Positions 1,116-14,228 of a DNA stretch of 14,228 bases are shown one piece after another. This DNA is from Lachnospiraceae bacterium UBA3845. Its GTDB lineage: Bacteria; Bacillota; Clostridia; Lachnospirales; Lachnospiraceae. Position 1 is the first letter of the stretch. Each line of letters opens with the position of its first letter. Location: NCBI GenBank assembly GCA_002392705.1, contig DGHP01000146.1:1-14228 (forward strand), given 5' to 3'. A program made the translations under genes and the position numbers. A model generated the notes under the pieces. That model saw only the letters and a list, made by a program, of their open reading frames with translations. It did no database searches and had not been told where the DNA came from.

Positions 1116-1428
1116 GAGAGATTCTTAAACAAAAAGAAGCTGAAAACTGCACATGGATGTTTCCAGAATGCATGCCTTTGTTGTATAATATTTTTAGCTT
1201 GCCAGAAGTATGACCCGCAAAAAATGTATAGACAATTCTGACAGCTTGACTTTTGGCGTATCAATCATAATATGATTACAGCGGCAGAGCTTTGTCCACA
1301 CGCTTTCTCTGTTCCGGGTACCAGTCCGATGGCGAACCGGGATGCGCACATCGCCTGTTACGGCGAGATTGTCGGGGCATATATTGCCGAATAACGAAAG
1401 GCTGCGGTATTTTTCAGGAGGGACATGT
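1116..1428 (+). other. Intergenic region with candidate promoter and structured leader
   Basis: No gene is supported here. A candidate plus-strand promoter is TTGACT (1246-1251), 16 bp, TAATAT (1268-1273), which would give the transglutaminase-like gene a leader of about 150 nt. That leader can fold: TCGCC (1351-1355) can pair with GGCGA at 1362-1366 or with an identical GGCGA upstream at 1331-1335, and a bulged stem follows at 1372-1390. Another TATAAT occurs at 1184-1189 but its -35 is poor. I could not match the leader to a known riboswitch class. Confidence 0.45.
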
Positions 1429-1962
1429 ATGAAAGAATCAAAAGTTTTTTTCAGAAGGCTTCTGCTGCTTTTCAGCTTATGCATGATACTGACCGCAGGG
1501 AATGCCTATGCGGCAAAACCGGGGCTTGTTCCTGTCGGCAAACTGGCAAATTATAATTATTTCCGCCGCTATATGTCTCAGTCGGAGCTTCAGCAGGCAT
1601 ACGACAGGGCGGAAAGTATCGTGGCACCCCTGGTCGGGATGAATAAAAAAGATCAGCTGAAAGGAATCGCGGTCGGCCTGAGGGCACTCGTCGACAACGG
1701 AAGCGTCGGCTATTCCATGAAGGCCAGCCATTATAATGATCCCTACGGCTATCTGGTGAAAGGCATGGCATCCTGCGCCGGATGCGCAAGGGCAACCGGC
1801 CTGTGCCTGAATATGCTCGGAATCCGGTATGAGCATGTGAATGAGAACAAGTATACTCACCAGTGGGCGCGGGTTAAGGTAGGGAAGAAATACTGGATCT
1901 GTGACGCGTACGGACTGTACTGCGGCCCGGAACCCGGGGTGAGAAAGCACCCGTATCTGTGA
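1429..1962 (+). CDS. Secreted transglutaminase-like (papain-fold) protein
   Basis: A 177-residue exported protein. A signal peptide is clear: basic MKESKVFFRR, a hydrophobic core at about 11-24, and an A-Y-A cleavage site after residue 28. The mature part carries the Cys-His-Asp order of the transglutaminase-like superfamily: C116 in SCAGCARATG at the start of a helix followed by LNMLGIRY, H144 in THQWARV, and D159 in YWICDAYG. Members act as cysteine proteases, peptidoglycan-linked enzymes or non-catalytic binders, so the reaction is not assigned. The usual aromatic residue two positions after the catalytic Cys and Gly is Cys119 here. The start is ATG 1429, six bases after AGGAGGG (1416-1422); an upstream ATG at 1342 has no ribosome binding site. 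The protein is short for the family and consists of the core domain only. Confidence 0.75.
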   Translation: MKESKVFFRRLLLLFSLCMILTAGNAYAAKPGLVPVGKLANYNYFRRYMSQSELQQAYDRAESIVAPLVGMNKKDQLKGIAVGLRALVDNGSVGYSMKASHYNDPYGYLVKGMASCAGCARATGLCLNMLGIRYEHVNENKYTHQWARVKVGKKYWICDAYGLYCGPEPGVRKHPYL

Positions 1963-1963
1963 G

Positions 1964-1981
1964 AAAGCAGCATGCTGCTTT
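1964..1981 (+). terminator. Palindromic hairpin after the transglutaminase-like gene
   Basis: AAAGCAGCATGCTGCTTT is a perfect 18-bp palindrome starting two bases after the stop codon. A further GCTGC at 1986-1990 followed by ATTTTT offers an alternative stem with GCAGC at 1967-1971 and a short T-tail, so the segment 1964-1996 may act as a weak terminator. There is no long T-run directly after the perfect palindrome. Confidence 0.45.
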
Positions 1982-2143
1982 ACCAGCTGCATTTTTAGCA
2001 GAGAAATGCTGAATAACCCTTTTTCAATTAACAAATCTTCAGCAGGCGGATACTGCGGCAAAACTGCAGATCCCGCGGCTTCCGTACCAGCCGGCAGCGG
2101 ATTCCGCCTGTGGAGGATCATACAGGAGAGGAGCAAAGAGAAT

Positions 2144-2329
2144 ATGTTTATCAGAAGAAAAATCAGGGAAATAAAGAATGCCGTCAACACCTTGCTTGCT
2201 CTGGCAGGTTTTCTGACAATCTGTTTTCTGATCATTCACAGAAGAGTGATCGCAGCCAAAATTCAGGGAAAGCCGCTTCCGGAGGCTCCGAAATGGCACA
2301 GGAAGCTGTTCTGCCACAAAAAAGCCTGA
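2144..2329 (+). CDS. Small single-span membrane protein
   Basis: A 61-residue frame with a basic N-terminus (MFIRRKIREIKN), one hydrophobic helix at about residues 15-32 (NTLLALAGFLTICFLIIH), then a basic tail ending KLFCHKKA. I do not recognise a family. Support comes from a purine-rich ribosome binding site (AGGAGAGGAG at 2124-2133, ten bases before the ATG), the clear membrane segment, and a strong terminator 40 bases after the stop. The same frame is open upstream to 2006, but that part is low-quality sequence without a ribosome binding site. Positive charge on both sides of the helix leaves topology unclear. Confidence 0.5.
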   Translation: MFIRRKIREIKNAVNTLLALAGFLTICFLIIHRRVIAAKIQGKPLPEAPKWHRKLFCHKKA

Positions 2330-2370
2330 ACTGTTCCGTCAGCGGCTGAAAGAAAAGTATGAAAACAAAG

Positions 2371-2410
2371 ACCAGCCGGCAGAGCGGATCTGATTTGCCG
2401 GCTGGTTTTT
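2371..2410 (+). terminator. Rho-independent terminator
   Basis: A perfect 11-bp stem pairs ACCAGCCGGCA (2371-2381) with TGCCGGCTGGT (2396-2406) across a 14-nt loop, followed by a T-run ending at 2410. It closes the small membrane protein gene and lies 17 bases from the stop of the convergent minus-strand gene. On that strand the stem is followed by a moderately T-rich stretch, so it may work in both directions. Confidence 0.9.
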
Positions 2411-2426
2411 AACAATACAGAGGCGG

Positions 2427-2750
2427 TCAGTCTTCCTGCCCGGAATCCTCCCTGGACTGCAGGGCGATCTGAGCCAGTTCTTCGTCGGTCAGCTCCTCTT
2501 CCCGGGACAGATAACTGTCGATCAGGGATTCTGCCTTTTCCGCGTCCTTCCGGTTTACATAGATATCCATCCCGAAAGGACTGCCCAGACCGATGATCCT
2601 CAGATATGCGCCGGAATCCTCCCGGTCTCTGTAGTAGGCGGGGATTCCGCTGTTAATCAGCAGGCCGGTGATCAGGTCCGCCTCATATACATCGCTCACG
2701 GAATGGACTGCGACGATGTCCGGGTCCTGTATGGTACCTTTGCGAAACAT
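2427..2750 (-). CDS. DUF2007-type small cytoplasmic protein
   Basis: A 107-residue protein with the DUF2007 pattern ('putative signal transducing protein'): a strand-helix opening VAVHSVSDVYEADLITGLLINSGIPAYYRD, in which a protein 'looks up' a helix and then GIPA, followed by FGMDIYVNRKDAEKAESLIDSYL, similar to the usual 'V.V...d.e.A..ll'. The tail is acidic (LSREEELTDEELAQIAL and SGQED). No membrane span is present. The biochemical role of DUF2007 proteins is unknown. The start is ATG 2748-2750 with AAAGGAG seven bases upstream. It is divergent from the dCache phosphatase gene, with 137 bp between starts. Confidence 0.75.
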   Translation of the reverse strand: MFRKGTIQDPDIVAVHSVSDVYEADLITGLLINSGIPAYYRDREDSGAYLRIIGLGSPFGMDIYVNRKDAEKAESLIDSYLSREEELTDEELAQIALQSREDSGQED

Positions 2751-2827
2751 AAGAATTCTCCTTTGAATTTTAAGAAAGGTCCGGTGTTTTTGCCGTGCGT
2801 GGAAACAATATGCTTCCTTTGTGTCTG

Positions 2828-2836
2828 ATTATAGCA
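2828..2836 (-). promoter_or_regulatory. Extended -10 promoter for the DUF2007-type gene
   Basis: Minus-strand TGCTATAAT (2828-2836) is a perfect -10 with the TGN extension; there is no good -35 17 bp upstream, as is common for extended -10 promoters. The leader would be about 70 nt. I found no convincing promoter for the divergent phosphatase operon in this 137-bp gap. Confidence 0.5.
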
Positions 2837-2887
2837 TGACGGAAGAAACTGCGCGACAGAGATTTACGGACACAGACAGGAGACAGA

Positions 2888-5074
2888 ATGAAACGTATTA
2901 AAAACTTTGTAATAGGCGGTATTGAGAATAAAGTATTTAACCTGATTCTGATGACAGTGATTCTTCTTACTGCCGCATATCTGGCTGTTTCTGCCTATCA
3001 CGGTAAAATGCTGAAAGATCTTGCCGCCGATTCCGCGGAGCGTCAGCAGACCGCTATTGAAGAGACGATCAGCTCCGTCATGGATTCCGTGGTGGATTCG
3101 TCCATGTACCGGTCCACGGGGCTGGAAGCCTATATCGTGAATGAGATGTTCTACGGGCTGGAAACCCGGGTAAGAATGCTGGGTGAATATGCGGAAAAAC
3201 TGTTTTCCGGGCCGGACAGTTATCCGAGGATGTCATATTCCACACCGGATGCCGGCAAAAACGGTGAGGTGCTTCCCCAGACAATCTTCGCGGACGGCGT
3301 GGATGACAGTTCGCCGGAGCTGAAAGACCGGATCGGACTTGCCGCCAATCTGTCAGATATGATGGTCTCCCTGTTCGGTGTCTCTGCGGAAACCAATTCC
3401 TGTTTCATTGCTCTGCCGGAGGGCGTATTCCTGGTCACGGATGACCGCACTGCCGCAAAGTACAGCGAAGACGGCAGCCCCGTCAGCTATGATCCCCGTA
3501 CCCGTCCCTGGTATCAGAAGGCTGTGGAAGAGGGACAGCTGATTTTTACGGACGTGGAGACGGACGCCTTTACCGGCGATGTCGGTATTGTGTGCGCCAT
3601 GCCCGTTTATGTGGATGGTCATCTGGAGGCGGTTGTGGGATCGGACCTGTTCCTTACCTCCATGCAGGAGTATGTGCAGACATCCGAAGAAAACGGCGGC
3701 TTTATGCTGATCGTTAACGATAAAGGACACGTTGTCTTTTCCCCGAAGACGGACGGCGTCTTTATGGTACGGCCTTCTTCGGAGGCGGTAGATCTGCGGC
3801 AGTCGGAAAATACGGAACTTGCCGCAGCGATCGATGCATCTATGAAAGAATTGACACAGCCCAGAACGATTGCTCTGGATGACGGCGGATATTATATCTG
3901 CGGGGCACCGGTTGAGACGGTCGGATGGGCTCTGATTTCCCTGTTCAGCCAGGAATCTGCCGGAATTCCGGCGGAGATGCTCAAAGAAAACTACGGGCAG
4001 ATCCAGGCGGAATCCACGGGGACTTATCTGAAGAATACGTCACATTCCAGAAATACAGGTCTTTTCCTGCTCATTCTGGTGACGCTCATCACTCTTGCGG
4101 GAGCTCTGTTTCTTGGGAAAAAAATCGTTACCCCGCTGAATACGATAACAAAGCGGATCTCAGGACTGAACGAAAAAAACCTGGAATTTAAGATGGAGGA
4201 CGCGTACCGCACCGGGGATGAGATCGAGGTGCTGGCGGAATCATTTGCGTCGCTGTCCCACAAGACCGTAGAATATGTAGACCGTGTAAAGAAAGTGACG
4301 GCGGAGAAGGAACGCATCAGCGCGGAGCTGTCCATGGCGACCAATATCCAGGCAGCGATGCTGCCGCATATCTTCCCCGCATTTCCGGACCGTCCCGATT
4401 TTGATATCTATGCCAGCATGAAGCCGGCAAAGGAAGTCGGCGGGGACTTCTACGACTATTTCCTGATTGACCAGGATCATCTCTGTATGGTAATGGCGGA
4501 TGTCTCGGGCAAGGGCGTTCCGGCTGCCCTGTTTATGATGGCCTCCAAGATTATTCTTCAGAGCTGCGCGATGCTCGGACAGTCTGTAGTTGATATTATG
4601 ACGAAGACCAACGAGGCGATCTGTTCCAACAACGAAGCGGAGATGTTTGTCACGGTCTGGCTGGGGATTCTGGAGCTGTCCACAGGCAGGCTGACTGCCG
4701 CCAACGCGGGACATGAATATCCGGTGCTGAAGCAGGAAAACGGCGTATTTGAGGTATTCCGGGACCAGCATAGTTTTGTCATCGGCGGAATGGAAGACTC
4801 GAAGTATAAGCAGTATGAGCTGCAGCTGAAACCGGGTGACAAGGTATTTGTCTACACGGACGGCGTTCCGGAGGCCACCAACAGCGAGGATGAAATGTTC
4901 GGTACGCAGCGTATGCTTGCCGCGGTAAATGAGAAACTGGACGCGGATCCGCAGACGATTCTGGAAAATGTGAGCCGGGCTGTTTCCGCTTTCGTTGGCA
5001 GCGCTCCCCAGTTTGACGATCTGACTATGATGTGCGTGGAGTACAGGGGAATGAAAGGGAAAAAGACATCCTGA
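2888..5074 (+). CDS. Membrane PP2C phosphatase: dCache-HAMP-SpoIIE/RsbU type
   Basis: A 728-residue sensor phosphatase. An N-terminal span (about 15-37) leads into a large extracytoplasmic domain (about 40-385) with the dCache signature DPRTRPWYQKA at 202-212, then IFTDVETDAFTGDVGIVCAMPVY and VVGSDLF. A second span lies at about 391-412, followed by a HAMP domain (KKIVTPLNTITKRISGL, then TGDEIEVLAESF) and a coiled linker KERISAELSMATNIQAAMLP. The C-terminal PP2C/SpoIIE domain has all metal-binding acidic motifs: GGDFYD (D520), ADVSGKG (D538), YTDGVPEA (D658) and FDDLTMM (D710, D711). Relatives dephosphorylate phosphoserine anti-sigma-factor antagonists, so this protein probably turns an external small-molecule signal into sigma or partner-switch output. 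No antagonist or anti-sigma gene is in the window. The start ATG follows AGGAG by five bases. The D-Ala-D-Ala dipeptidase gene follows after 34 bp. Confidence 0.92.
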   Translation: MKRIKNFVIGGIENKVFNLILMTVILLTAAYLAVSAYHGKMLKDLAADSAERQQTAIEETISSVMDSVVDSSMYRSTGLEAYIVNEMFYGLETRVRMLGEYAEKLFSGPDSYPRMSYSTPDAGKNGEVLPQTIFADGVDDSSPELKDRIGLAANLSDMMVSLFGVSAETNSCFIALPEGVFLVTDDRTAAKYSEDGSPVSYDPRTRPWYQKAVEEGQLIFTDVETDAFTGDVGIVCAMPVYVDGHLEAVVGSDLFLTSMQEYVQTSEENGGFMLIVNDKGHVVFSPKTDGVFMVRPSSEAVDLRQSENTELAAAIDASMKELTQPRTIALDDGGYYICGAPVETVGWALISLFSQESAGIPAEMLKENYGQIQAESTGTYLKNTSHSRNTGLFLLILVTLITLAGALFLGKKIVTPLNTITKRISGLNEKNLEFKMEDAYRTGDEIEVLAESFASLSHKTVEYVDRVKKVTAEKERISAELSMATNIQAAMLPHIFPAFPDRPDFDIYASMKPAKEVGGDFYDYFLIDQDHLCMVMADVSGKGVPAALFMMASKIILQSCAMLGQSVVDIMTKTNEAICSNNEAEMFVTVWLGILELSTGRLTAANAGHEYPVLKQENGVFEVFRDQHSFVIGGMEDSKYKQYELQLKPGDKVFVYTDGVPEATNSEDEMFGTQRMLAAVNEKLDADPQTILENVSRAVSAFVGSAPQFDDLTMMCVEYRGMKGKKTS

Positions 5075-5108
5075 AGCAGACGGTGAGAGAGCAGAAAGGA
5101 GCAGTGAA

Positions 5109-5762
5109 ATGGATTACATGCGCCGGGTTACGATGGATCCCTCCGGTTTTGTGGTGCTGGCGGACTTTGTCCCCCATATTATCCAGGAAATCCGCTATTA
5201 TTCCGACTACAATTTTATCGGTGAGAGAATCAGCGGATATGAAGAACCCTGTGCGCTTCTGACCATAGAAGCGGCCCGGGCCCTGAAAAAGGTCAGCAGT
5301 GAGCTTTTTGTCAAAGGATACTGGCTCAAGGTATTTGACGCATACCGCCCCGCAGGGGCTGTGGAGCAGTTCGTTCTCTGGGGCATCGAGGATCAGGATA
5401 TCCGGATGAAACCTTATTTTTATCCGGATCTGGAAAAGCAGGAGCTTTTTATCAAAGGCTACATCGCAAAAAAGTCCAGCCACAGCCGGGGAAGCGCGAT
5501 CGACCTGACGCTTCTCGATATGAAAACCGGCAGGGAAGTGGATATGGGAGGTCCTTTCGATCTGTTCAGCGAAGTATCGCACCCGGATTTCAGGGGCATT
5601 ACCAATGAACAGTATGAAAACCGGATGCTTCTGAGAAACGCCATGGTTAGGAACGGATTTCAGCCGATCGACTGTGAATGGTGGCATTTTTCCCTGAAAG
5701 ACGAGCCCTACCCGGACATTTATTTTGAGTTCCCGGTATCTGCCCGGTATCTGAGGAGATAG
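5109..5762 (+). CDS. D-alanyl-D-alanine dipeptidase (VanX/DdpX family, peptidase M15)
   Basis: A 217-residue zinc peptidase. The VanX-type residues are all visible: R80 in DAYRPAG (transition-state arginine), zinc ligands H125 and D132 in SSHSRGSAID, and catalytic E190 with zinc ligand H193 in CEWWHF. The family hydrolyses D-Ala-D-Ala. In VanA/B clusters this depletes the normal wall precursor, while in other bacteria (DdpX) it recycles dipeptide. No vanH, vanA or vanRS genes are nearby, so resistance should not be inferred. There is no signal peptide or membrane span, so it is cytoplasmic. Length is close to VanX (about 200). The start is ATG 5109 with AAAGGAG at 5096-5102. It sits between two phosphatase genes with gaps of 34 and 47 bp, so it is cotranscribed with them. 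Confidence 0.9.
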   Translation: MDYMRRVTMDPSGFVVLADFVPHIIQEIRYYSDYNFIGERISGYEEPCALLTIEAARALKKVSSELFVKGYWLKVFDAYRPAGAVEQFVLWGIEDQDIRMKPYFYPDLEKQELFIKGYIAKKSSHSRGSAIDLTLLDMKTGREVDMGGPFDLFSEVSHPDFRGITNEQYENRMLLRNAMVRNGFQPIDCEWWHFSLKDEPYPDIYFEFPVSARYLRR

Positions 5763-5809
5763 CCCGCGGAGAGCAGCAGCCAGACCGCATAGACCGGAGA
5801 GGAAGTCTT

Positions 5810-7738
5810 ATGAATAAGTACGGTAAATATCTGTTTTCTCTGGCCGCGGTGTTTCTGCTGACGGTTCTGGCCGGACTGGGCGCTCTCCGGCGCGTGGACA
5901 AGTGGGCGCAGGACTGGTTTTTCCAGAAGCCCGGCGTGTCTTCCGGGAATATCATTATAATCGGAATTGATGAGGACGCGCTGGCGGAACTGGGGCCATA
6001 CCATACATGGAGCAGGGAGGTTATCGCTTCCGTCCTGGAAAAGCTGGCTGAGGATCCGGAAAAAAAGCCCGCCGTCACGGCATTGGATATTCTGTACGCG
6101 GGAAAGAGCAGCGCGTCTGCTGACAGCAGGCTTGCAGCTGCAGCCGGGGCACTGGGAAATGTGGTGACGGCTTCCATGGCCGAATTCGGTGAAAGCATCA
6201 GCTGGGAAAACGGGCATGCCGTATCGCTTTACGGGGATGCCGTAGTGTGCTATGAGCAGCCTTATGAGGAACTGCGCCAGCGGACAACGCAGGGCCATAT
6301 CAATATTATGCCGGACAAAGACGGGATTATCCGCCATGCTCTTCTGTATGTGGAGCCCGAGGGGGAAACGGGTGAAAGCGTCTGTTCCATGGCGGCTGAG
6401 ACGGCCCGCATTTACCTTGAACAGAAAGGAGAGGAGCTGGTGCTGCCTCCGGTTAACCGGACCGGTCATTTTTATATTCCTTATTCCGCCCTTCCCGGAA
6501 GCTATTATGACGGCGTTTCCGTCGCCATGGTTCTCAGCGGAAAGGTGCCTCCGGATTACTGGGCCGGGAAGATTGTACTGATCGGACCTTATGCGGCGGC
6601 TCTCCAGGATGCTTACTTCACGTCCGTTGACAAGAGTCAGCCGATGTACGGGGTGGAGATTCAGGCCAACCTGATTCAGAGTTTTCTGGAAGGGAACTTC
6701 CGGACGGAACTTCCGGATTTGCCTCAGCTGATCCTGCTGTTCCTGCTGTGCGCGGCAGCGGTGATTTATTTCCTGAGAGCAAGGGTGGTCCGGGGCGCCG
6801 CCGCCTGCGCGGGCCTGATCGCGCTGTACCTCTTCATAGCGTATATTCTGTATAAGTCAGGATTGATTATTCACCTTCTCTGGCTGCCCTGCTGTCTCCT
6901 GCTTCTTTATCTTCTGGCCATGGTGTTTCACTACATACGCGCAGCGGAAGAAAGACAGCAGCTGGCTCTGGAAAAGGAGCGGATCAGTACGGAACTGGCT
7001 CTGGCTTCCCGAATCCAGAAAGGCGCGCTTGTAAAAGATTTTCCCCCGTTTCCGGAACGGAAGGAATTTGAACTGTATGCATCCATGAATCCAGCAAAAG
7101 AAGTCGGCGGCGATTTTTATGATTTCTTTCTGATCGATGATGATCACCTGGGACTGGTAATTGCGGACGTGTCCGGGAAGGGTTCTCCGGCGGCTCTGTT
7201 TATGATGGTCTCCATGGCCCTGGTCCGCCACGCGGCCATGAGCGGGGGAAATGAATTCAGTCCGGCAAAGGCGCTGCAGGACGTGAACAGGCAGGTCTGT
7301 TCCCGCAATCCGGAAGAAATGTTCGTGACGGTCTGGCTTGGAATTCTGGAGATCTCCACGGGAAAACTGACAGCGGCGAACGCCGGCCACGAATACCCGG
7401 TTCTGAAGAGAGCGGACGGAAGCTTTGAACTGATTAAAGACAAACATGGACTTGTAATCGGCGCCATGGAAATGGCAGTCTACCGGCAGTACGATCTGCA
7501 GCTGGAACCCGGAGCAAAACTCTTCGTCTATACGGACGGGGTGGCTGAGGCTCTGAATGAGCAGGATGAGCTCTTCGGGACAGCACGGATGGTCGCTGCG
7601 CTTCGCGGCTGTGAGGACGGTTCCCCTGAAAAGATTCTGGAGACGGTCGGACAGGCGGTTAAGGCATTTGCCGGAAGCGCGCCGCAGGCGGACGATCTTA
7701 CCATGCTCTGCCTGCAGTACAACGGCAGCGTATCATAA
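5810..7738 (+). CDS. Membrane PP2C phosphatase: CHASE2-SpoIIE/RsbU type
   Basis: A 642-residue sensor phosphatase. One N-terminal span (about 7-26) is followed by an extracytoplasmic CHASE2 domain (about 30-300; markers IIIIGIDEDALAELGPYHTWSR, ALDILY, GHINIMPDKDGIIRHALLYV, GKIVLIGPYAAALQDAYFTS, MYGVEIQANLIQSFL). Three closely spaced spans follow at about 304-325, 327-348 and 351-376, the usual CHASE2 architecture. A short helix EERQQLALEKERISTELALASRIQ leads to the PP2C domain with GGDFYD (D435), ADVSGKG (D453), YTDGVAEA, and ADDLTML (D628, D629). There is no HAMP domain. The catalytic half closely resembles that of the first phosphatase in this operon, so one arose from the other by duplication and sensor exchange. 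It probably dephosphorylates a serine-phosphorylated antagonist protein. The start ATG follows GGAGAGGAA. Confidence 0.92.
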   Translation: MNKYGKYLFSLAAVFLLTVLAGLGALRRVDKWAQDWFFQKPGVSSGNIIIIGIDEDALAELGPYHTWSREVIASVLEKLAEDPEKKPAVTALDILYAGKSSASADSRLAAAAGALGNVVTASMAEFGESISWENGHAVSLYGDAVVCYEQPYEELRQRTTQGHINIMPDKDGIIRHALLYVEPEGETGESVCSMAAETARIYLEQKGEELVLPPVNRTGHFYIPYSALPGSYYDGVSVAMVLSGKVPPDYWAGKIVLIGPYAAALQDAYFTSVDKSQPMYGVEIQANLIQSFLEGNFRTELPDLPQLILLFLLCAAAVIYFLRARVVRGAAACAGLIALYLFIAYILYKSGLIIHLLWLPCCLLLLYLLAMVFHYIRAAEERQQLALEKERISTELALASRIQKGALVKDFPPFPERKEFELYASMNPAKEVGGDFYDFFLIDDDHLGLVIADVSGKGSPAALFMMVSMALVRHAAMSGGNEFSPAKALQDVNRQVCSRNPEEMFVTVWLGILEISTGKLTAANAGHEYPVLKRADGSFELIKDKHGLVIGAMEMAVYRQYDLQLEPGAKLFVYTDGVAEALNEQDELFGTARMVAALRGCEDGSPEKILETVGQAVKAFAGSAPQADDLTMLCLQYNGSVS

Positions 7739-7817
7739 CAGGATGCATTGATTCAGTTGGCGTGAATTGATTTTCCGCTGGATGGCCTTATCTCCGTATA
7801 ATGTTTTTACACAGCTG

Positions 7818-7859
7818 CGGCCTGCAGATTCCTTTCATGAGAATCTGCAGGCCGTTTTT
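7818..7859 (+). terminator. Rho-independent terminator of the phosphatase operon
   Basis: A perfect 14-bp stem pairs 7818-7831 (CGGCCTGCAGATTC) with 7841-7854 across a 9-nt loop, followed by five T residues (7855-7859). It lies 80 bp after the CHASE2 phosphatase stop and just before the convergent lacI-type gene. There is no T-run on the other strand. Confidence 0.92.
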
Positions 7860-7865
7860 GATATA

Positions 7866-7895
7866 TCCGGTTTTTATTCTGTCCGGTTTTTATTC
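7866..7895. repeat. Short tandem repeat at the lacI-type gene 3' end
   Basis: TCCGGTTTTTATTC occurs at 7866-7879 and again at 7882-7895, a period of 16 bp. The second copy contains the TAA stop (minus strand, 7890-7892) of the LacI-family gene. It looks like a local duplication. Confidence 0.6.
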
Positions 7896-8894
7896 CGGCC
7901 CGCACAGGCTGACCGGTATAATCTCCTGCTGAAGAGGGCAGCCGGGTTCTTCGATCCGTCTCAGAAGAAGACTGACAGCTGATTTCGCGAGACTTTTTCC
8001 CGGAACACAGGAGATGGTCCGAAGTTTCGGAAGATAGGAGATCGTACGGTGAATATTGTCAAAACCAATAATTTCGATATCGTCCGGGACTTTTTTACCG
8101 GCGGCAGCGAGCTTGTTGATCAGATAATAAGCCAGCTCATCGTTGAAGGAGAAAACCGCGGTAAAGTCGAGCGGTTCCAGAAGACTGGCGTCATCGCTGT
8201 CGTTGACGGTCGGATAAAAGCGGTCATGGGGCAGTTCCCGGATCTGTTCAGGGGAAATCCCTCCTTCCCGCAGAGCGTCCCGGAAACCGTTCCGCCGGTA
8301 GACATGTGAAGAGTTCACCAGCGGACCGCCAAGATAAAGGAAACGCCGATGCCCGCGGCTTACCAGATATCTGCCGGCCTGGTAAGCTCCGCTGTAGTCA
8401 TCGGGCCGGGTCAGATCCATCTTAAGACCGGAGATTTCACGGTCAATCAGGACGATCGGAACCTTTGTCTGCAGAATCCGGTCTGCATTGTGGACGCCGC
8501 TGCTTATCGGAAACAGGAAAATACCGTCTACGGAATGAGAGATGGCAAGCTCCAGCATCTGCGCCTCCTGCTTCGCATCATTATGCGTACAGAGGATCAT
8601 GACAACATATCCCTCTTCACGCAGCAGCTGGTCCAGTTCATTGATCAGTGAGGAGTAGTGGGGATTCTGAATCTCTTCCACGACTACGGCGATGACATGG
8701 CTTTTACCGGACCGCAGGCCGGAGGCAAGATTATTGCGGATATATCCAAGCTCCTCAGCCGCTTTTGATATCTTCGTCCGCGTGTCCTCCGGAAGCTTCG
8801 TATCCCCCCTGAGCACGCGCGATACAGTATTGACGGAGAAGCCGCATTGTTCTGCCACATCTCTGAGCGTAATGCGTCCTGTTTTGTCTGCCAT
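7890..8894 (-). CDS. LacI/GalR-family transcriptional regulator
   Basis: A 334-residue repressor. The N-terminal helix-turn-helix is typical (ITLRDVAEQCGFSVNTVSRVLRGD at about 8-31, hinge helix NNLASGLRSGKSHVIAVVV), followed by a periplasmic-binding-like effector domain (NPHYSSLINELDQLLREEGY, VDGIFLFP, VPIVLIDRE, GHRRFLYLGGP, FTAVFSFNDELAYYLINKL, IEIIGFDN). The gene is divergent from a GH51 and ABC sugar operon, which suggests an arabinose or arabino-oligosaccharide-type effector; that is inference. I chose ATG 8894 because family members begin a few residues before the helix-turn-helix. The frame is open to ATG 8978, adding 28 residues, and neither start has a strong ribosome binding site. 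It probably represses its own gene as well, since a palindrome overlaps its predicted start point. Confidence 0.9.
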   Translation of the reverse strand: MADKTGRITLRDVAEQCGFSVNTVSRVLRGDTKLPEDTRTKISKAAEELGYIRNNLASGLRSGKSHVIAVVVEEIQNPHYSSLINELDQLLREEGYVVMILCTHNDAKQEAQMLELAISHSVDGIFLFPISSGVHNADRILQTKVPIVLIDREISGLKMDLTRPDDYSGAYQAGRYLVSRGHRRFLYLGGPLVNSSHVYRRNGFRDALREGGISPEQIRELPHDRFYPTVNDSDDASLLEPLDFTAVFSFNDELAYYLINKLAAAGKKVPDDIEIIGFDNIHRTISYLPKLRTISCVPGKSLAKSAVSLLLRRIEEPGCPLQQEIIPVSLCGPE

Positions 8895-9049
8895 GGTATT
8901 TACCCCGTATCTCTCAGAAATGCTCATCACGCCGCAAACCCTGATGCGGACCGCATCCTTCTGCCTGGCGTCTAACATAAATATCCCGGCGCAGCTGTCT
9001 CACCGAAGAATACCGTGAACGCACCGATGAAGTCCGGCAGCTTAAGCGG

Positions 9050-9070
9050 AAGTGTGCTTAAAGCACACTT
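9050..9070. promoter_or_regulatory. Candidate LacI-type operator (21-bp palindrome)
   Basis: Perfect 10-bp arms AAGTGTGCTT and AAGCACACTT flank a single central base. The element covers about +1 to +21 of the predicted lacI-type transcript, so its centre falls near +11, the place lac O1 occupies, and like O1 it is 21 bp with an odd centre. A related smaller palindrome (GCTTAAGC) lies at 9040-9047. Because five T residues follow on the plus strand, it could also act as a terminator, but no plus-strand gene precedes it. Confidence 0.5.
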
Positions 9071-9076
9071 TTTTCA

Positions 9077-9105
9077 ATTATAGCATTCATCAAATACATG
9101 GACAA
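9077..9105 (-). promoter_or_regulatory. Promoter of the LacI-family regulator
   Basis: On the minus strand TTGTCC (9100-9105) and TATAAT (9077-9082) are spaced by exactly 17 bp, with a predicted start near 9070. The leader to ATG 8894 would be about 175 nt. Confidence 0.65.
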
Positions 9106-9213
9106 GAAGAAAGAAAGAACAAAAGAAATGAAAAATATGCACAAATAATCTTCGATAAATTTGTAAAAAATAGTAAAAACGAAATCAGAGTACAAAAAAA
9201 CAGAGTCGATGCA

Positions 9214-9242
9214 TTGACAAATTCATGGAATAACGTTAATCT
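9214..9242 (+). promoter_or_regulatory. Promoter of the sugar-uptake and GH51 operon with overlapping palindrome
   Basis: A perfect -35 TTGACA (9214-9219) is followed after 17 bp by a weak -10 TAATCT (9237-9242), the pattern of a controlled promoter. GAATAACGTTAATC (9228-9241), a CG-centred palindrome with one mismatched pair, covers the spacer and -10, as expected for a repressor of LacI type. It lacks the outer TG and CA of a CcpA cre site. A-tracts upstream may act as an UP element. Confidence 0.55.
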
Positions 9243-9315
9243 ATATCTATCATAGGTATGTTGCAGTAATTGCGCTGCAGCGACCGGTGTAACAGTTGTG
9301 AAAGGAGAACAAGGT

Positions 9316-10641
9316 ATGAAAAAAAGACTGCTTGCAACTCTTCTTACCGCAAGTCTGGCTGCCGCGGCAATCTGCGCAGTTCCGGCCATGGCTTCCGATG
9401 ACGGCTCCACACAGGGCACCAACACCTTTGTGGACGGCGGAACAGACCTGAACTTCTGGACTTTCCAGGAACTTCATGTAGCATTCTGGACCACCATGGC
9501 GGATGTCTGGAATGAGCAGAATCCGGACCGCCCGATTAACCTGACCGTTACCAACGGCGAGTCCCATTCCCTTCATACCAAGCTGCTCACCGCCTGCGAG
9601 GCCGGTGAGGGCACCCCGGATATCGCTGATATCGAGATCGGCTACTATGGCTCCTTCGTCAACAAGGGCTATCTGATTCCGATCAATGATGCGGTAGAAC
9701 CGTATGAGGACGATGTTGTCATGTCCCGTGTCACCATGTACGGCGATCCGGAAGGAAACTACTATGGCGTTGACTTCCACCTCGGCGCATCTGTAGCATA
9801 TTACAACATGGACATCATGAATGCAGCGGAAGTTGACCCGGCTGACATCGTCACCTGGGATGATTTCATCGAAGCAGGAAAGAAAGTCCTGGAAGCAACC
9901 GGCAAGCCGATGTGCGCTGTCGAGACAGCGGACCTTTTCCTTCCGCAGCTCATGATGCTTGAGCTTGGCGCTCAGTATGTGGACGCGGACGGCAATCCGA
10001 ACCTTGTAACAGACGAACACATCCAGGTCATCGACAAGATCCGTGAGATGATCGATCTGGGCATCTGCATCGTGGCTCCGGGCGGCGGATTCCATACCGA
10101 AGAGTGGTACGGATTCCTTGATCAGGGCGGCGTTGCATGCGTCCTTATGCCGCTGTGGTACATGGGAAGATTTACCGACTATATGCCGGATCTGGATCAG
10201 AAGATGGCGATCTATCAGATCCCGGTATGGAACGAAGGCGACGTGCGTGAAGTCCTTCAGGGCGGCACCGGCACATCCGTTATCAAGGGAACCGAGAACG
10301 AGCAGCTGGCGAAGGATTTCCTGGCATTCGCGAAGCTTTCCAAGGAAGGCTGCACCTATGAGTGGAATGAACTCGGATTTGACCCGATCCGTACAGAACT
10401 CTGGGATGATCCGGAAATCACCGAGAACAAGGACAACAAGTTCCTGGCTTACTTCCTGACCAATCCATTTGACATCCTGAAAGCAAACGGAACCGAGCTG
10501 ACCGCACCGGATATCTCCGGTCTGTATTCCACAACCTACAGCACGCTGGTTTCCACCACCTATGCGAACGCATTTGAGATTTCGATTGATACCGATGCTG
10601 CTGAACTTCTTCAGCAGGAGCAGGACAGCATTATTTTCTGA
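9316..10641 (+). CDS. ABC transporter sugar-binding protein
   Basis: A 441-residue extracellular solute-binding protein of the carbohydrate (family 1, AraN/MalE-like) group. The mature start LNFWTFQELHVAFWTTMADVWNEQNPDRPINLTV, then EAGEGTPDIADIEIGYYGSFVNKGYLIPIND and YYGVDFHLGASVAYYNMDIM, are typical of the fold. The signal peptide (MKKRLLATLLTASLAAAAIC...) ends in A-M-A at 24-26, a type I cleavage site. A Cys at 20 is preceded by A-A-I, which is a poor lipobox, unlike most Gram-positive binding proteins. The start is ATG 9316, eight bases after AAAGGAG (9301-9307); an earlier GTG at 9298 would run through that site. It is first in the operon, before two permeases and GH51 enzymes, so arabino-oligosaccharides are the likely ligand. 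Confidence 0.9.
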   Translation: MKKRLLATLLTASLAAAAICAVPAMASDDGSTQGTNTFVDGGTDLNFWTFQELHVAFWTTMADVWNEQNPDRPINLTVTNGESHSLHTKLLTACEAGEGTPDIADIEIGYYGSFVNKGYLIPINDAVEPYEDDVVMSRVTMYGDPEGNYYGVDFHLGASVAYYNMDIMNAAEVDPADIVTWDDFIEAGKKVLEATGKPMCAVETADLFLPQLMMLELGAQYVDADGNPNLVTDEHIQVIDKIREMIDLGICIVAPGGGFHTEEWYGFLDQGGVACVLMPLWYMGRFTDYMPDLDQKMAIYQIPVWNEGDVREVLQGGTGTSVIKGTENEQLAKDFLAFAKLSKEGCTYEWNELGFDPIRTELWDDPEITENKDNKFLAYFLTNPFDILKANGTELTAPDISGLYSTTYSTLVSTTYANAFEISIDTDAAELLQQEQDSIIF

Positions 10642-10694
10642 TAGCGCCTGCTGCGTTTTCGGAAAATAAAAAAGTTGAATAACTGATCTGGGAG

Positions 10695-10726
10695 ATGCGG
10701 TGCGGGAGTACGATTCCGCACCGCAT
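10695..10726 (+). promoter_or_regulatory. Intercistronic hairpin between binding protein and permease genes
   Basis: A perfect 11-bp GC-rich stem pairs ATGCGGTGCGG (10695-10705) with CCGCACCGCAT (10716-10726) across a 10-nt loop. No T-run follows and the next ribosome binding site starts about nine bases later. It is more likely an RNA-stabilising or processing element, or a leaky attenuator, than a full terminator. Confidence 0.65.
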
Positions 10727-10745
10727 TCCTGTGAACGGAGGCATT

Positions 10746-11663
10746 ATGGAGAGCAAGAAGAAAAAAAGGCTATCGTCCAGATTCCTTTATTCTCAGAAAA
10801 TAGCACCGTATGTTTTTATTGCTCCTTTTCTTATTACGTTCGTGGTGTTCTTCGCCTACTCGATCGTGAACATGGTCATCATGAGTTTCCAGAATGTCGC
10901 GGGAGCAAATTCCACCTTCATCGGACTGCAGAATTATCAGAAGATCCTGCCGAACGCGGTATTCCAGAAAGCGCTGAAGAACAGCATTTTCTATACGATC
11001 GTATCCTGCGCGCTGATGATTCCGATTCCGCTTCTGATGGCTGCCATGCTGAACAGCCGCCATATGAAGGGCAAGGCTTTCTTCCGGAGCATCCTGTTTA
11101 TCCCCGCGCTGACTTCCGTAGTTGTCTCCGGTGTCATGTTCCGCCTGATGTTCGGAGAACTGGAAGGATCCTTTATGAATAAGCTGATCGGCCTGTTCGG
11201 AGCCGGTCCGCTGATCTGGCTGCGGACGCCGGTTACGGTCTGGATTATTCTGTTTTTCCTCTGCATGTGGAGGTGGACGGGCGTAAACATGATGTACTAC
11301 CTGTCCGGCCTGCAGCAGATCGACAGCGCCCTGTATGAATCCGCGGCGATTGACGGGGCAGGAACGCTGGATACCTTCCGCTATATTACGATTCCGCTGC
11401 TGAAGCCGACCACCATCTATGTTCTGACTATATCCATATTCGGCGGCATGGCCATGTTCTCGGAGTCCTACATGATCTTTAACGGCAATAAGTCTCCGAA
11501 CAATGTGGGCACGACGCTTGTCGGAATGCTATACAGGATGGGCTTTGAGCAGGGCAATCTGGGCATCGCCAGCGCGATCGGTGTGGTCTTCCTCCTTATT
11601 GTCCTTGTCGTCAACGTCATTCAGCTGTTCATCAACGGCACATTCGGCAGAAAGGAGGATTAA
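10746..11663 (+). CDS. ABC sugar permease (AraP/MalF/UgpA type)
   Basis: A 305-residue inner-membrane permease. After a basic start (MESKKKKRLSSR), a first span at about 20-42 (APYVFIAPFLITFVVFFAYSI) is followed by about five more. The cytoplasmic EAA loop that docks on the ATPase reads YESAAIDGAGTLDTFRYITIPLL, with E198 and G204. Together with the next gene it would form the heterodimeric channel fed by the binding protein. The start is ATG 10746, close behind ACGGAGG (10735-10741); the frame extends upstream to ATG 10695 but through the hairpin and ribosome binding site. The gene ends three bases before the next start. Confidence 0.92.
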   Translation: MESKKKKRLSSRFLYSQKIAPYVFIAPFLITFVVFFAYSIVNMVIMSFQNVAGANSTFIGLQNYQKILPNAVFQKALKNSIFYTIVSCALMIPIPLLMAAMLNSRHMKGKAFFRSILFIPALTSVVVSGVMFRLMFGELEGSFMNKLIGLFGAGPLIWLRTPVTVWIILFFLCMWRWTGVNMMYYLSGLQQIDSALYESAAIDGAGTLDTFRYITIPLLKPTTIYVLTISIFGGMAMFSESYMIFNGNKSPNNVGTTLVGMLYRMGFEQGNLGIASAIGVVFLLIVLVVNVIQLFINGTFGRKED

Positions 11664-11666
11664 GCG

Positions 11667-12500
11667 GTGAGAAAATCAATACCCAAGACGACTTTGCTTA
11701 TTCTCTTTTTTATCGGCGCTGCCGTGATTACCCTGCTGCCTCTGGCTCTGCTTTTTGTCGCGTCCCTGCGGCCCGGGCAGGAGCTGATGAGAAACGGGCT
11801 GAATTTCAGTATCGATTGGAAAAACGCGAATCTGGATGAGTACCGCTATCTCTTCAGCGGCAACAACGCCTATTTTACCTGGTATATCAACAGCCTGATC
11901 GTCACGGTGGTCCAGGTGGCGCTTGCCCTGATCCTGAGTTCCTGGGTCGGTTACGGATTTGCCATGTATGAGTTCAAGGGAAAGAACCTTTCCTTCATGC
12001 TGGTGCTGCTGGTCATGATGGTTCCGACCGAGGTCATCATTCTTCCCCTGTACCGGCTGATTATCAGGCTGGGACTGATCAATACGAAAGCGGGTATTAT
12101 TGTACCCTATGTGGTCATTCCCATGCTGATCTTTTTCTTCCGGCAGTATCTGTCCGGCATCCCGAAGGACTTCGTGGACGCGGGGCGTGTGGACGGATGC
12201 TCTGAATACGGGATCTATACGAGGATCATGCTTCCCCTGATGAAACCGGCTTTTGCGGCCATGGGAATCTATGAAGGCATGGCAAGCTGGAATAATTTCT
12301 TCTGGCCCATGATTGTCATCAACCAGAACAGCAAGATAACGCTGCCGGTCGGTCTGCAGAGCCTTCTGTCCCCTTACGGCAACAACTACGACATCCTGAT
12401 CGCCGGTTCCTGTTTTGCGATTATCCCGATCCTGCTTCTGTTTGTCATGTTCCAGCGTTACTTTATCGAAGGCATGACAGCCGGAGGCGTGAAAGGCTGA
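11667..12500 (+). CDS. ABC sugar permease (AraQ/MalG/UgpE type), GTG start
   Basis: A 277-residue permease partner. The opening span TLLILFFIGAAVITLLPLALLFVASLRP, the following NSLIVTVVQVALALILSSWVGYGFAMY, and the segment VPTEVIILPLYRLIIRLGLINT are hallmarks of MalG-type subunits. The EAA loop is DAGRVDGCSEYGIYTRIMLPL (171 onward, G177). It ends in the usual QRYFIEGMTAGGVKG. It starts with GTG at 11667, eight bases after AAAGGAGG (11651-11658), which lies in the end of the preceding gene. No ATPase subunit follows; a GH51 gene starts 15 bp downstream. Confidence 0.93.
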   Translation: MRKSIPKTTLLILFFIGAAVITLLPLALLFVASLRPGQELMRNGLNFSIDWKNANLDEYRYLFSGNNAYFTWYINSLIVTVVQVALALILSSWVGYGFAMYEFKGKNLSFMLVLLVMMVPTEVIILPLYRLIIRLGLINTKAGIIVPYVVIPMLIFFFRQYLSGIPKDFVDAGRVDGCSEYGIYTRIMLPLMKPAFAAMGIYEGMASWNNFFWPMIVINQNSKITLPVGLQSLLSPYGNNYDILIAGSCFAIIPILLLFVMFQRYFIEGMTAGGVKG

Positions 12501-12515
12501 GGAGGGTCCGGATCG

Positions 12516-14228
<1,713 letters not shown>

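Follow-up and report, generated by a model that had tools for sequence, protein, structure and literature searches.

A VanX-like dipeptidase gene between two SpoIIE-type sensor phosphatase genes in a Lachnospiraceae genome, and the recurrence of such dipeptidases beside partner-switching genes

The window, by which we mean the whole 14,228-nucleotide stretch of DNA analysed here, is contig C70 of a metagenome-assembled genome (MAG) of a Lachnospiraceae bacterium from the gut, probably from a rumen (2.62 Mb, 84% complete, 198 contigs); this genome is G000 in the comparisons with its genus and with 195 relatives. Genes in the window were called from open reading frames (ORFs), and ten window proteins were scanned with Pfam. 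Three neighbouring genes are the subject of this report: two encode SpoIIE-type (PP2C) phosphatases with different sensor domains, and the gene between them encodes a predicted D-Ala-D-Ala-type dipeptidase (Table 1). An earlier note, written from the letters of this DNA alone, had described the three genes as tightly packed under one terminator, and on both points we find the same, down to the coordinates and the two gaps.

Table 1. Genes, gaps and terminator of the three-gene segment (positions in the window)
Feature	Position	Strand	Size, basis or signal
dCache_1-SpoIIE/PP2C phosphatase	2888..5074	+	728 aa; ORF and Pfam
Gap, 34 bp	5075..5108	+	AGGAG ribosome-binding site; identical in G010
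M15D dipeptidase, VanX/DdpX-related (predicted)	5109..5762	+	217 aa; ORF, Pfam, VanX alignment, motifs
Gap, 47 bp	5763..5809	+	purine-rich ribosome-binding site; 3 differences from G010
CHASE2-SpoIIE/PP2C phosphatase	5810..7738	+	642 aa; ORF and Pfam
Intrinsic terminator 3' of third gene	7817..7859	+	hairpin of ~15 bp and T-run

The region of the terminator (7806-7870) folds as RNA with -30.4 kcal/mol (z -6.95), and a consensus scan of 2300-9400 places neither promoter-like nor terminator-like sites in either of the intergenic gaps. The same scan gives no promoter-like (sigma-70-like) site on the + strand 5' of position 2888; its total of 6 promoters, compared with 5.0 in shuffled sequences, is at shuffle level. 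With this arrangement, the three genes are probably cotranscribed as one operon. Elsewhere in the window, positions 1342-1962 encode a 206-aa secreted-looking protein with a Cys-His-Asp pattern; it reads like a transglutaminase-type fold, and Pfam returns no match for it. Downstream, at 7890-14012, a LacI-type regulator faces a sugar ABC transporter and an alpha-L-arabinofuranosidase-family gene, apparently an ordinary-looking operon for arabinoside use.

In the Pfam scan, the first gene matches SpoIIE (165.3 bits) and dCache_1 (62.6 bits) and the third matches CHASE2 (151.6 bits) and SpoIIE (168.1 bits), all above the respective cut-offs, so that both outer genes belong to the SpoIIE-type PP2C family (PF07228, cut-off 25 bits). 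Conserved Asp motifs bear functional roles in SpoIIE-type PP2C enzymes, and the four of them (VGGDFYD, ADVSGKG, YTDG and DDLTM) are kept in both phosphatases. The two PP2C domains share 59-60% identity over ~260 aa, and the idea of dCache and CHASE2 sensors mounted on closely related phosphatases is thereby confirmed. Two hydrophobic segments are found in the dCache phosphatase (~14-38 and 388-415), and because the dCache domain sits between these membrane segments, it is predicted to lie outside the cell. The CHASE2 phosphatase has one N-terminal hydrophobic segment and a cluster of them at ~300-379. The best NCBIfam match of the first gene is SiaA (NF038263), but at 68.1 bits, compared with the 700 bits that the model calls for.

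The product of the middle gene matches Peptidase_M15 in Pfam (139 bits, above the cut-off) and aligns with VanX (1r44) over 198 residues without a gap (167 bits). The motifs YRP, SxHxxGxAxD and EWWH, whose residues are zinc ligands or have catalytic roles in VanX-type enzymes, are all retained, and homology and motifs together point to a D-Ala-D-Ala dipeptidase of the VanX/DdpX type with its catalytic residues intact, as had been proposed. We take M15D to be the MEROPS label for the DdpX/VanX dipeptidases. The protein has no hydrophobic or membrane segment. It stays below the cut-offs of both equivalog models, VanX (NF033115, 198.5 vs 320 bits) and DdpX (NF007557, 110.2 vs 176 bits). In some relatives, Pfam finds the M15 dipeptidase domain sharing a reading frame with DUF3089 (L044:2027-3805 and L086:7089-8849) or with an L,D-transpeptidase YkuD domain (L016:1393-2811).

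The exact trio is present in 2 of 19 genomes of the genus, that of the window and G010, which match at 92% DNA identity over window positions 1419-14228. Between the two, the dipeptidase genes differ at 13 nucleotides and at 0 amino acids, all differences being silent, and the two phosphatases differ by 14 and 36 amino-acid changes. Among the best 80 of at least 571 dipeptidase relatives, a CHASE2 gene adjoins the dipeptidase at a single locus, and this one (L031) is the G010 contig. A search of the 195 relatives gives full-length orthologues of the CHASE2-PP2C protein in G004 (67% identity) and G006 (63%), with no dipeptidase in the 14.0 kb and 11.6 kb examined around them, respectively. Likewise, no dipeptidase flanks six dCache-PP2C genes in G011, G012 (two), G004, G018 and G008, several of which are on contigs that end nearby. 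Because the trio has no further occurrence in the genomes and loci examined, the dCache/dipeptidase/CHASE2 layout is, as far as these data go, confined to two closely related species. As a conserved system in unrelated genomes it has to be given up, and the earlier view of the layout as a wider system was not borne out. The earlier note had also stated that occurrence in one genome only would argue against a functional unit; the second species narrowly avoids that outcome, but conserved co-occurrence of the exact trio is not what we find.

A looser question is how often dipeptidases of this family lie near any SpoIIE-type gene. For this purpose, we used the best 80 of at least 571 dipeptidase relatives, on contigs from one genome per species, with flanks of up to 5 kb per side. 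Flank genes were taken as the longest ORFs, so that gene starts, like the small overlaps (-34, -17), are approximate, and were typed by phmmer with the window proteins, the STAS, HATPase and sigma proteins of G000 and one STAS-kinase protein. In this sample of 80, a SpoIIE-type gene lies within 5 kb of the dipeptidase at 22 loci. The expected number is 1.2 from the density of SpoIIE genes (352 matches in ~196 Mb, same 80 genomes), and none of 200,000 simulated draws gave more than 8; for these expectations, genome sizes were rounded and related MAGs were counted as if they were independent. The 22 include three pairs of close kin (L045/L048, L051/L056 and L093/L094) as well as L032, a 182-aa end fragment that scores 33 bits against PP2C and was omitted from the tree and sensor-group analyses. 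All 24 of the flank PP2C genes in the 80 loci are on the strand of the dipeptidase, and at 9 loci one lies within 100 bp, where 0.03 would be expected by distance and 0.3 by counting the two neighbouring genes. Where the flanks reach at least 2.5 kb on both sides, the proportion is 17 of 54 loci. The other 58 of the 80 loci have no PP2C in the flank examined, many flanks being shorter than 5 kb; thus, the link is frequent and not obligatory.

Other partner-switching genes accompany the dipeptidases in the same sample of 80. STAS-bearing genes occur at 20 loci (26 genes, 23 of them on the dipeptidase strand), PP2C or STAS genes at 28, and HATPase kinases also recur in the flanks. HATPase labels of 20-26 bits on proteins of 590-601 aa (L032, L036, L057, L086 and L094) did not enter the PP2C and STAS counts. 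When the four genes on each side were instead clustered with BLAST, the partner-switch cluster was the commonest neighbour, in 26 of 81 rows (the 80 loci and the window), ahead of an ABC-transporter cluster in 14. ABC transporters are far more numerous in genomes.

The association between dipeptidase and phosphatase is a repeated one rather than the legacy of a single origin. A quick dipeptidase tree, in which 10 of the 76 inner branches are starred, requires 15 changes in the presence of a phosphatase over the 60 labelled rows, 23 with PP2C including the window and 37 without; the other 21 rows, again from the best 80 of at least 571 relatives and the window, were omitted for short flanks. 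BLAST of the N-terminal parts sorts the neighbour phosphatases into at least seven sensor groups. Even the dCache phosphatases that abut a dipeptidase, those of the window and G010, of L078, and of L045 and L048, do not group apart from those that abut none; three changes are required on a tree of 14 sequences (9 of 11 inner branches starred).

The 195 relatives give 30 strong dipeptidase matches (E <=1e-49), of which at least 5 have a SpoIIE gene within 5 kb; among the matches listed, this is on the same strand in G000, G010, G187 and G004, and on the other strand in G012. This set was read by eye and overlaps the 80-locus sample, G010 and G187 being in both. Within the genus, the link between dipeptidase and PP2C is weak: a PP2C gene lies within 5 kb at only 3 of the 10 further dipeptidase loci examined, that of G012 being on the other strand, and the remaining 7 have none, two of these on contigs shorter than 5 kb.

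Several of the other operons give some support to an envelope theme beyond the window. The dCache-PP2C gene that abuts the dipeptidase in L045 and L048 comes after a STAS gene. The order in L078 is a MATE-HATPase fusion, a 195-aa gene, a HATPase, a dCache phosphatase and the dipeptidase. Another row (L085:1048-5642) contains a SpoIIE phosphatase, a VanY-type carboxypeptidase, an unknown gene and the M15D dipeptidase. Six loci (L038, L042, L051, L056, L093 and L094) encode proteins in which STAS is joined to an APH-type kinase, and in five of the six a HATPase is part of them too.

Some of the proteins in these loci are unusual fusions by Pfam. STAS and an APH-type phosphotransferase are joined at L037:3227-4411, and a HATPase_c_2 domain is added to such a pair at L042:2025-3581; judged from its predicted domains, each unites the greater part of a switch core in a single polypeptide. 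Two MATE transporters (L038:5664-7433 and L078:38-1786) carry a C-terminal HATPase_c_2 domain resembling an anti-sigma kinase, and 9 of 81 rows have a member of the MATE-HATPase cluster near the dipeptidase (best 80 of at least 571 relatives, and the window).

The remaining members of a switch were sought in the genome of the window, as the earlier note had suggested for STAS antagonist and anti-sigma genes, and they are present together with a sigma factor. Above the cut-off, STAS is matched once in G000 and HATPase_c_2 twice, and on contig C99 a sigma-70-family factor (regions 2 and 4), a STAS protein and a HATPase are encoded in a row on one strand. The same row, in the same order, is found in G010 (C21) and G009 (C134). 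By gene content, one genome therefore holds phosphatase, STAS, HATPase and sigma factor, with the window contributing phosphatases only. A comparison of the trio with the sigma and STAS genes gave no shared promoter, only scattered 8-mers. G000 has at least seven SpoIIE-type genes (eight matches, two of which are parts of one broken-up frame on C38), and the simplest picture would be one of many receptors reporting to few hubs. The window phosphatases may act on the STAS protein of C99; the MAG being 84% complete, this target is not certain. In G010, there are two strong STAS matches and one weak one.

The second HATPase match of G000, on C106 (L116:7426-9693), belongs to a 755-aa protein in which the kinase domain is fused to a SpoIIE phosphatase, so that a single chain presumably holds opposite activities. 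Similar SpoIIE-HATPase proteins are encoded in G010 (C5) and G004 (C2).

Of the cell-envelope-responsive partner-switching unit put forward earlier, the operon-like unit, the switching context and the link of the dipeptidase family to SpoIIE genes stand, and the layout as a wider system does not. We consider it moderately probable that the trio is a partner-switch operon whose receptors report to a remote hub, with the dipeptidase as effector cargo. The two outer proteins would be membrane receptors that have different extracellular sensors and closely related phosphatase domains. Through them, a STAS antagonist encoded elsewhere (C99) would be dephosphorylated and would then bind the HATPase anti-sigma kinase, freeing the sigma factor of the same row. 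The cytoplasmic D-Ala-D-Ala-type dipeptidase would be made together with the receptors without being a signalling part itself, and may trim wall precursors or salvage dipeptides under the same conditions as the receptors operate. If the dipeptidase is cargo, sensors can vary while the association recurs, and many dipeptidases can do without a phosphatase. Here we infer the STAS target, the substrate of the dipeptidase and its physiological role, and the coupling of dipeptide turnover to signalling that the earlier note suggested stays an inference as well.

Known systems resemble this arrangement in part. As in RsbU/SpoIIE partner switching, SpoIIE-type PP2C domains are mounted on membrane sensors, and STAS, HATPase and sigma genes are in the genome; here, however, hub and receptors are encoded on different contigs, a dipeptidase gene is packed in with the receptor genes, and at least seven SpoIIE-type genes face one STAS match in an incomplete genome. 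The SiaABCD system of Pseudomonas aeruginosa, according to the accessible part of its description, likewise uses a membrane-bound PP2C acting by partner switching and includes a diguanylate cyclase (PMC7647112), whereas a Pfam scan of ten window proteins yields neither a STAS protein nor a HATPase nor a diguanylate cyclase. With DdpX and VanX, the window dipeptidase shares the gapless 198-aa alignment and the catalytic motifs; unlike them, it scores below both equivalog cut-offs and sits with partner-switch genes, and the ten proteins scanned include neither products of van genes nor a peptide transporter. E. coli ddpX provides a precedent for a starvation-linked sigma factor driving a D-Ala-D-Ala dipeptidase, since it is strongly induced via RpoN and NtrC under nitrogen depletion in the portion of the source available (PMC8743547).

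The genes may instead be incidental neighbours, a recent trio at the level of the lineage in which a nutritional or wall-recycling dipeptidase shares a transcript with the sensors and has no regulatory relation to them. Such an origin would fit the restriction of the exact trio to 2 of 19 genus genomes, the six dCache-PP2C and two CHASE2-PP2C relatives with no dipeptidase in the flanks examined, the 25 of 30 strong dipeptidase matches (195 relatives, among the matches listed) with no SpoIIE gene within 5 kb, and the 58 of 80 loci with no PP2C in the flank examined (best 80 of at least 571). What it does not lead one to expect is the excess of same-strand, often abutting PP2C genes with varied sensors at 22 loci of that sample, and we regard it as possible but on the unlikely side.

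A second alternative makes the trio a feedback unit, in which dCache or CHASE2 senses D-Ala, D-Ala-D-Ala or the wall stress that removal of the latter brings about, and passes the signal on to the switch. We know of no ligands of CHASE2. Enzyme and sensors are indeed packed together, and in an alignment with PctA the dCache domain keeps Tyr201, Arg206, Trp208, Tyr209 and Asp253, that is, the carboxyl-contacting Tyr, Arg and Trp and the final Asp of the amino-acid motif; at the place of PctA Tyr144, however, it has Glu224. The dCache_1AA motif, in the part of the source available (PMC11237719), consists of an aromatic residue, Arg/Lys, Trp, an aromatic residue, a second aromatic residue at +13-17 and Asp at +27-34, and the spacing printed for its first two residues falls one short of that in the alignment with PctA. 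Glu224 replaces the second aromatic residue of this motif, with no Tyr, Phe or Trp at 223-227. The CahR definition of AI-2 receptors, as given in the excerpted text (PMC9540692), comprises R126, W128, Y144, D146 and D173 of PctA, and the window dCache has four of the five, Y144 again being Glu224. Because of this mismatch with both motifs as published in those parts, the domain belongs by these rules to neither the amino-acid nor the AI-2 class, both assignments failing at this one position. None of the 14 aligned dCache phosphatases has an aromatic residue at that place. Moreover, D-amino acids are among the test compounds reported as non-binding in the accessible text (PMC11237719), and enzyme and sensor are predicted to be on opposite sides of the membrane. 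We judge such feedback to be improbable. A remnant of glycopeptide resistance, with the dipeptidase working as VanX, has the gapless VanX match and the catalytic motifs in its favour and is still highly implausible, given the missed equivalog cut-off (198.5 of 320 bits), a Pfam scan of ten window proteins that gives no van genes, ligase or dehydrogenase, and a genome with one strong D-Ala-D-Ala ligase-family match (175.4 bits; the other seven <=48.4).

Each of the proteins, and partner switching itself, is already known; the repeated placement of a VanX-like dipeptidase in such operons is apparently undescribed, and, among the open-licence papers listed, titles and the beginnings of abstracts gave no description of a link between dipeptidase and partner switching. 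In the gut and rumen Clostridia sampled, each genome carries several SpoIIE-type sensor phosphatases (352 matches over 80 genomes, from the best 80 of at least 571 dipeptidase relatives), to which, to our knowledge, neither inputs nor outputs have been assigned. With a wall dipeptidase recurring in SpoIIE operons, cell-wall precursor handling may be one such output, represented by a concrete enzyme. A stronger statement, which we think doubtful, is that gut Clostridia have recurrent partner-switch operons with a VanX-like dipeptidase as a working part, in which varied SpoIIE phosphatases gate, or are gated by, D-Ala-D-Ala turnover; if true, wall-building capacity would be an input or a directly controlled output of a stress switch. 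For VanX-like dipeptidases, the operons add a setting besides vancomycin resistance and the dipeptide-transporter operon, and they hint that in these bacteria wall turnover and stress signalling run together.
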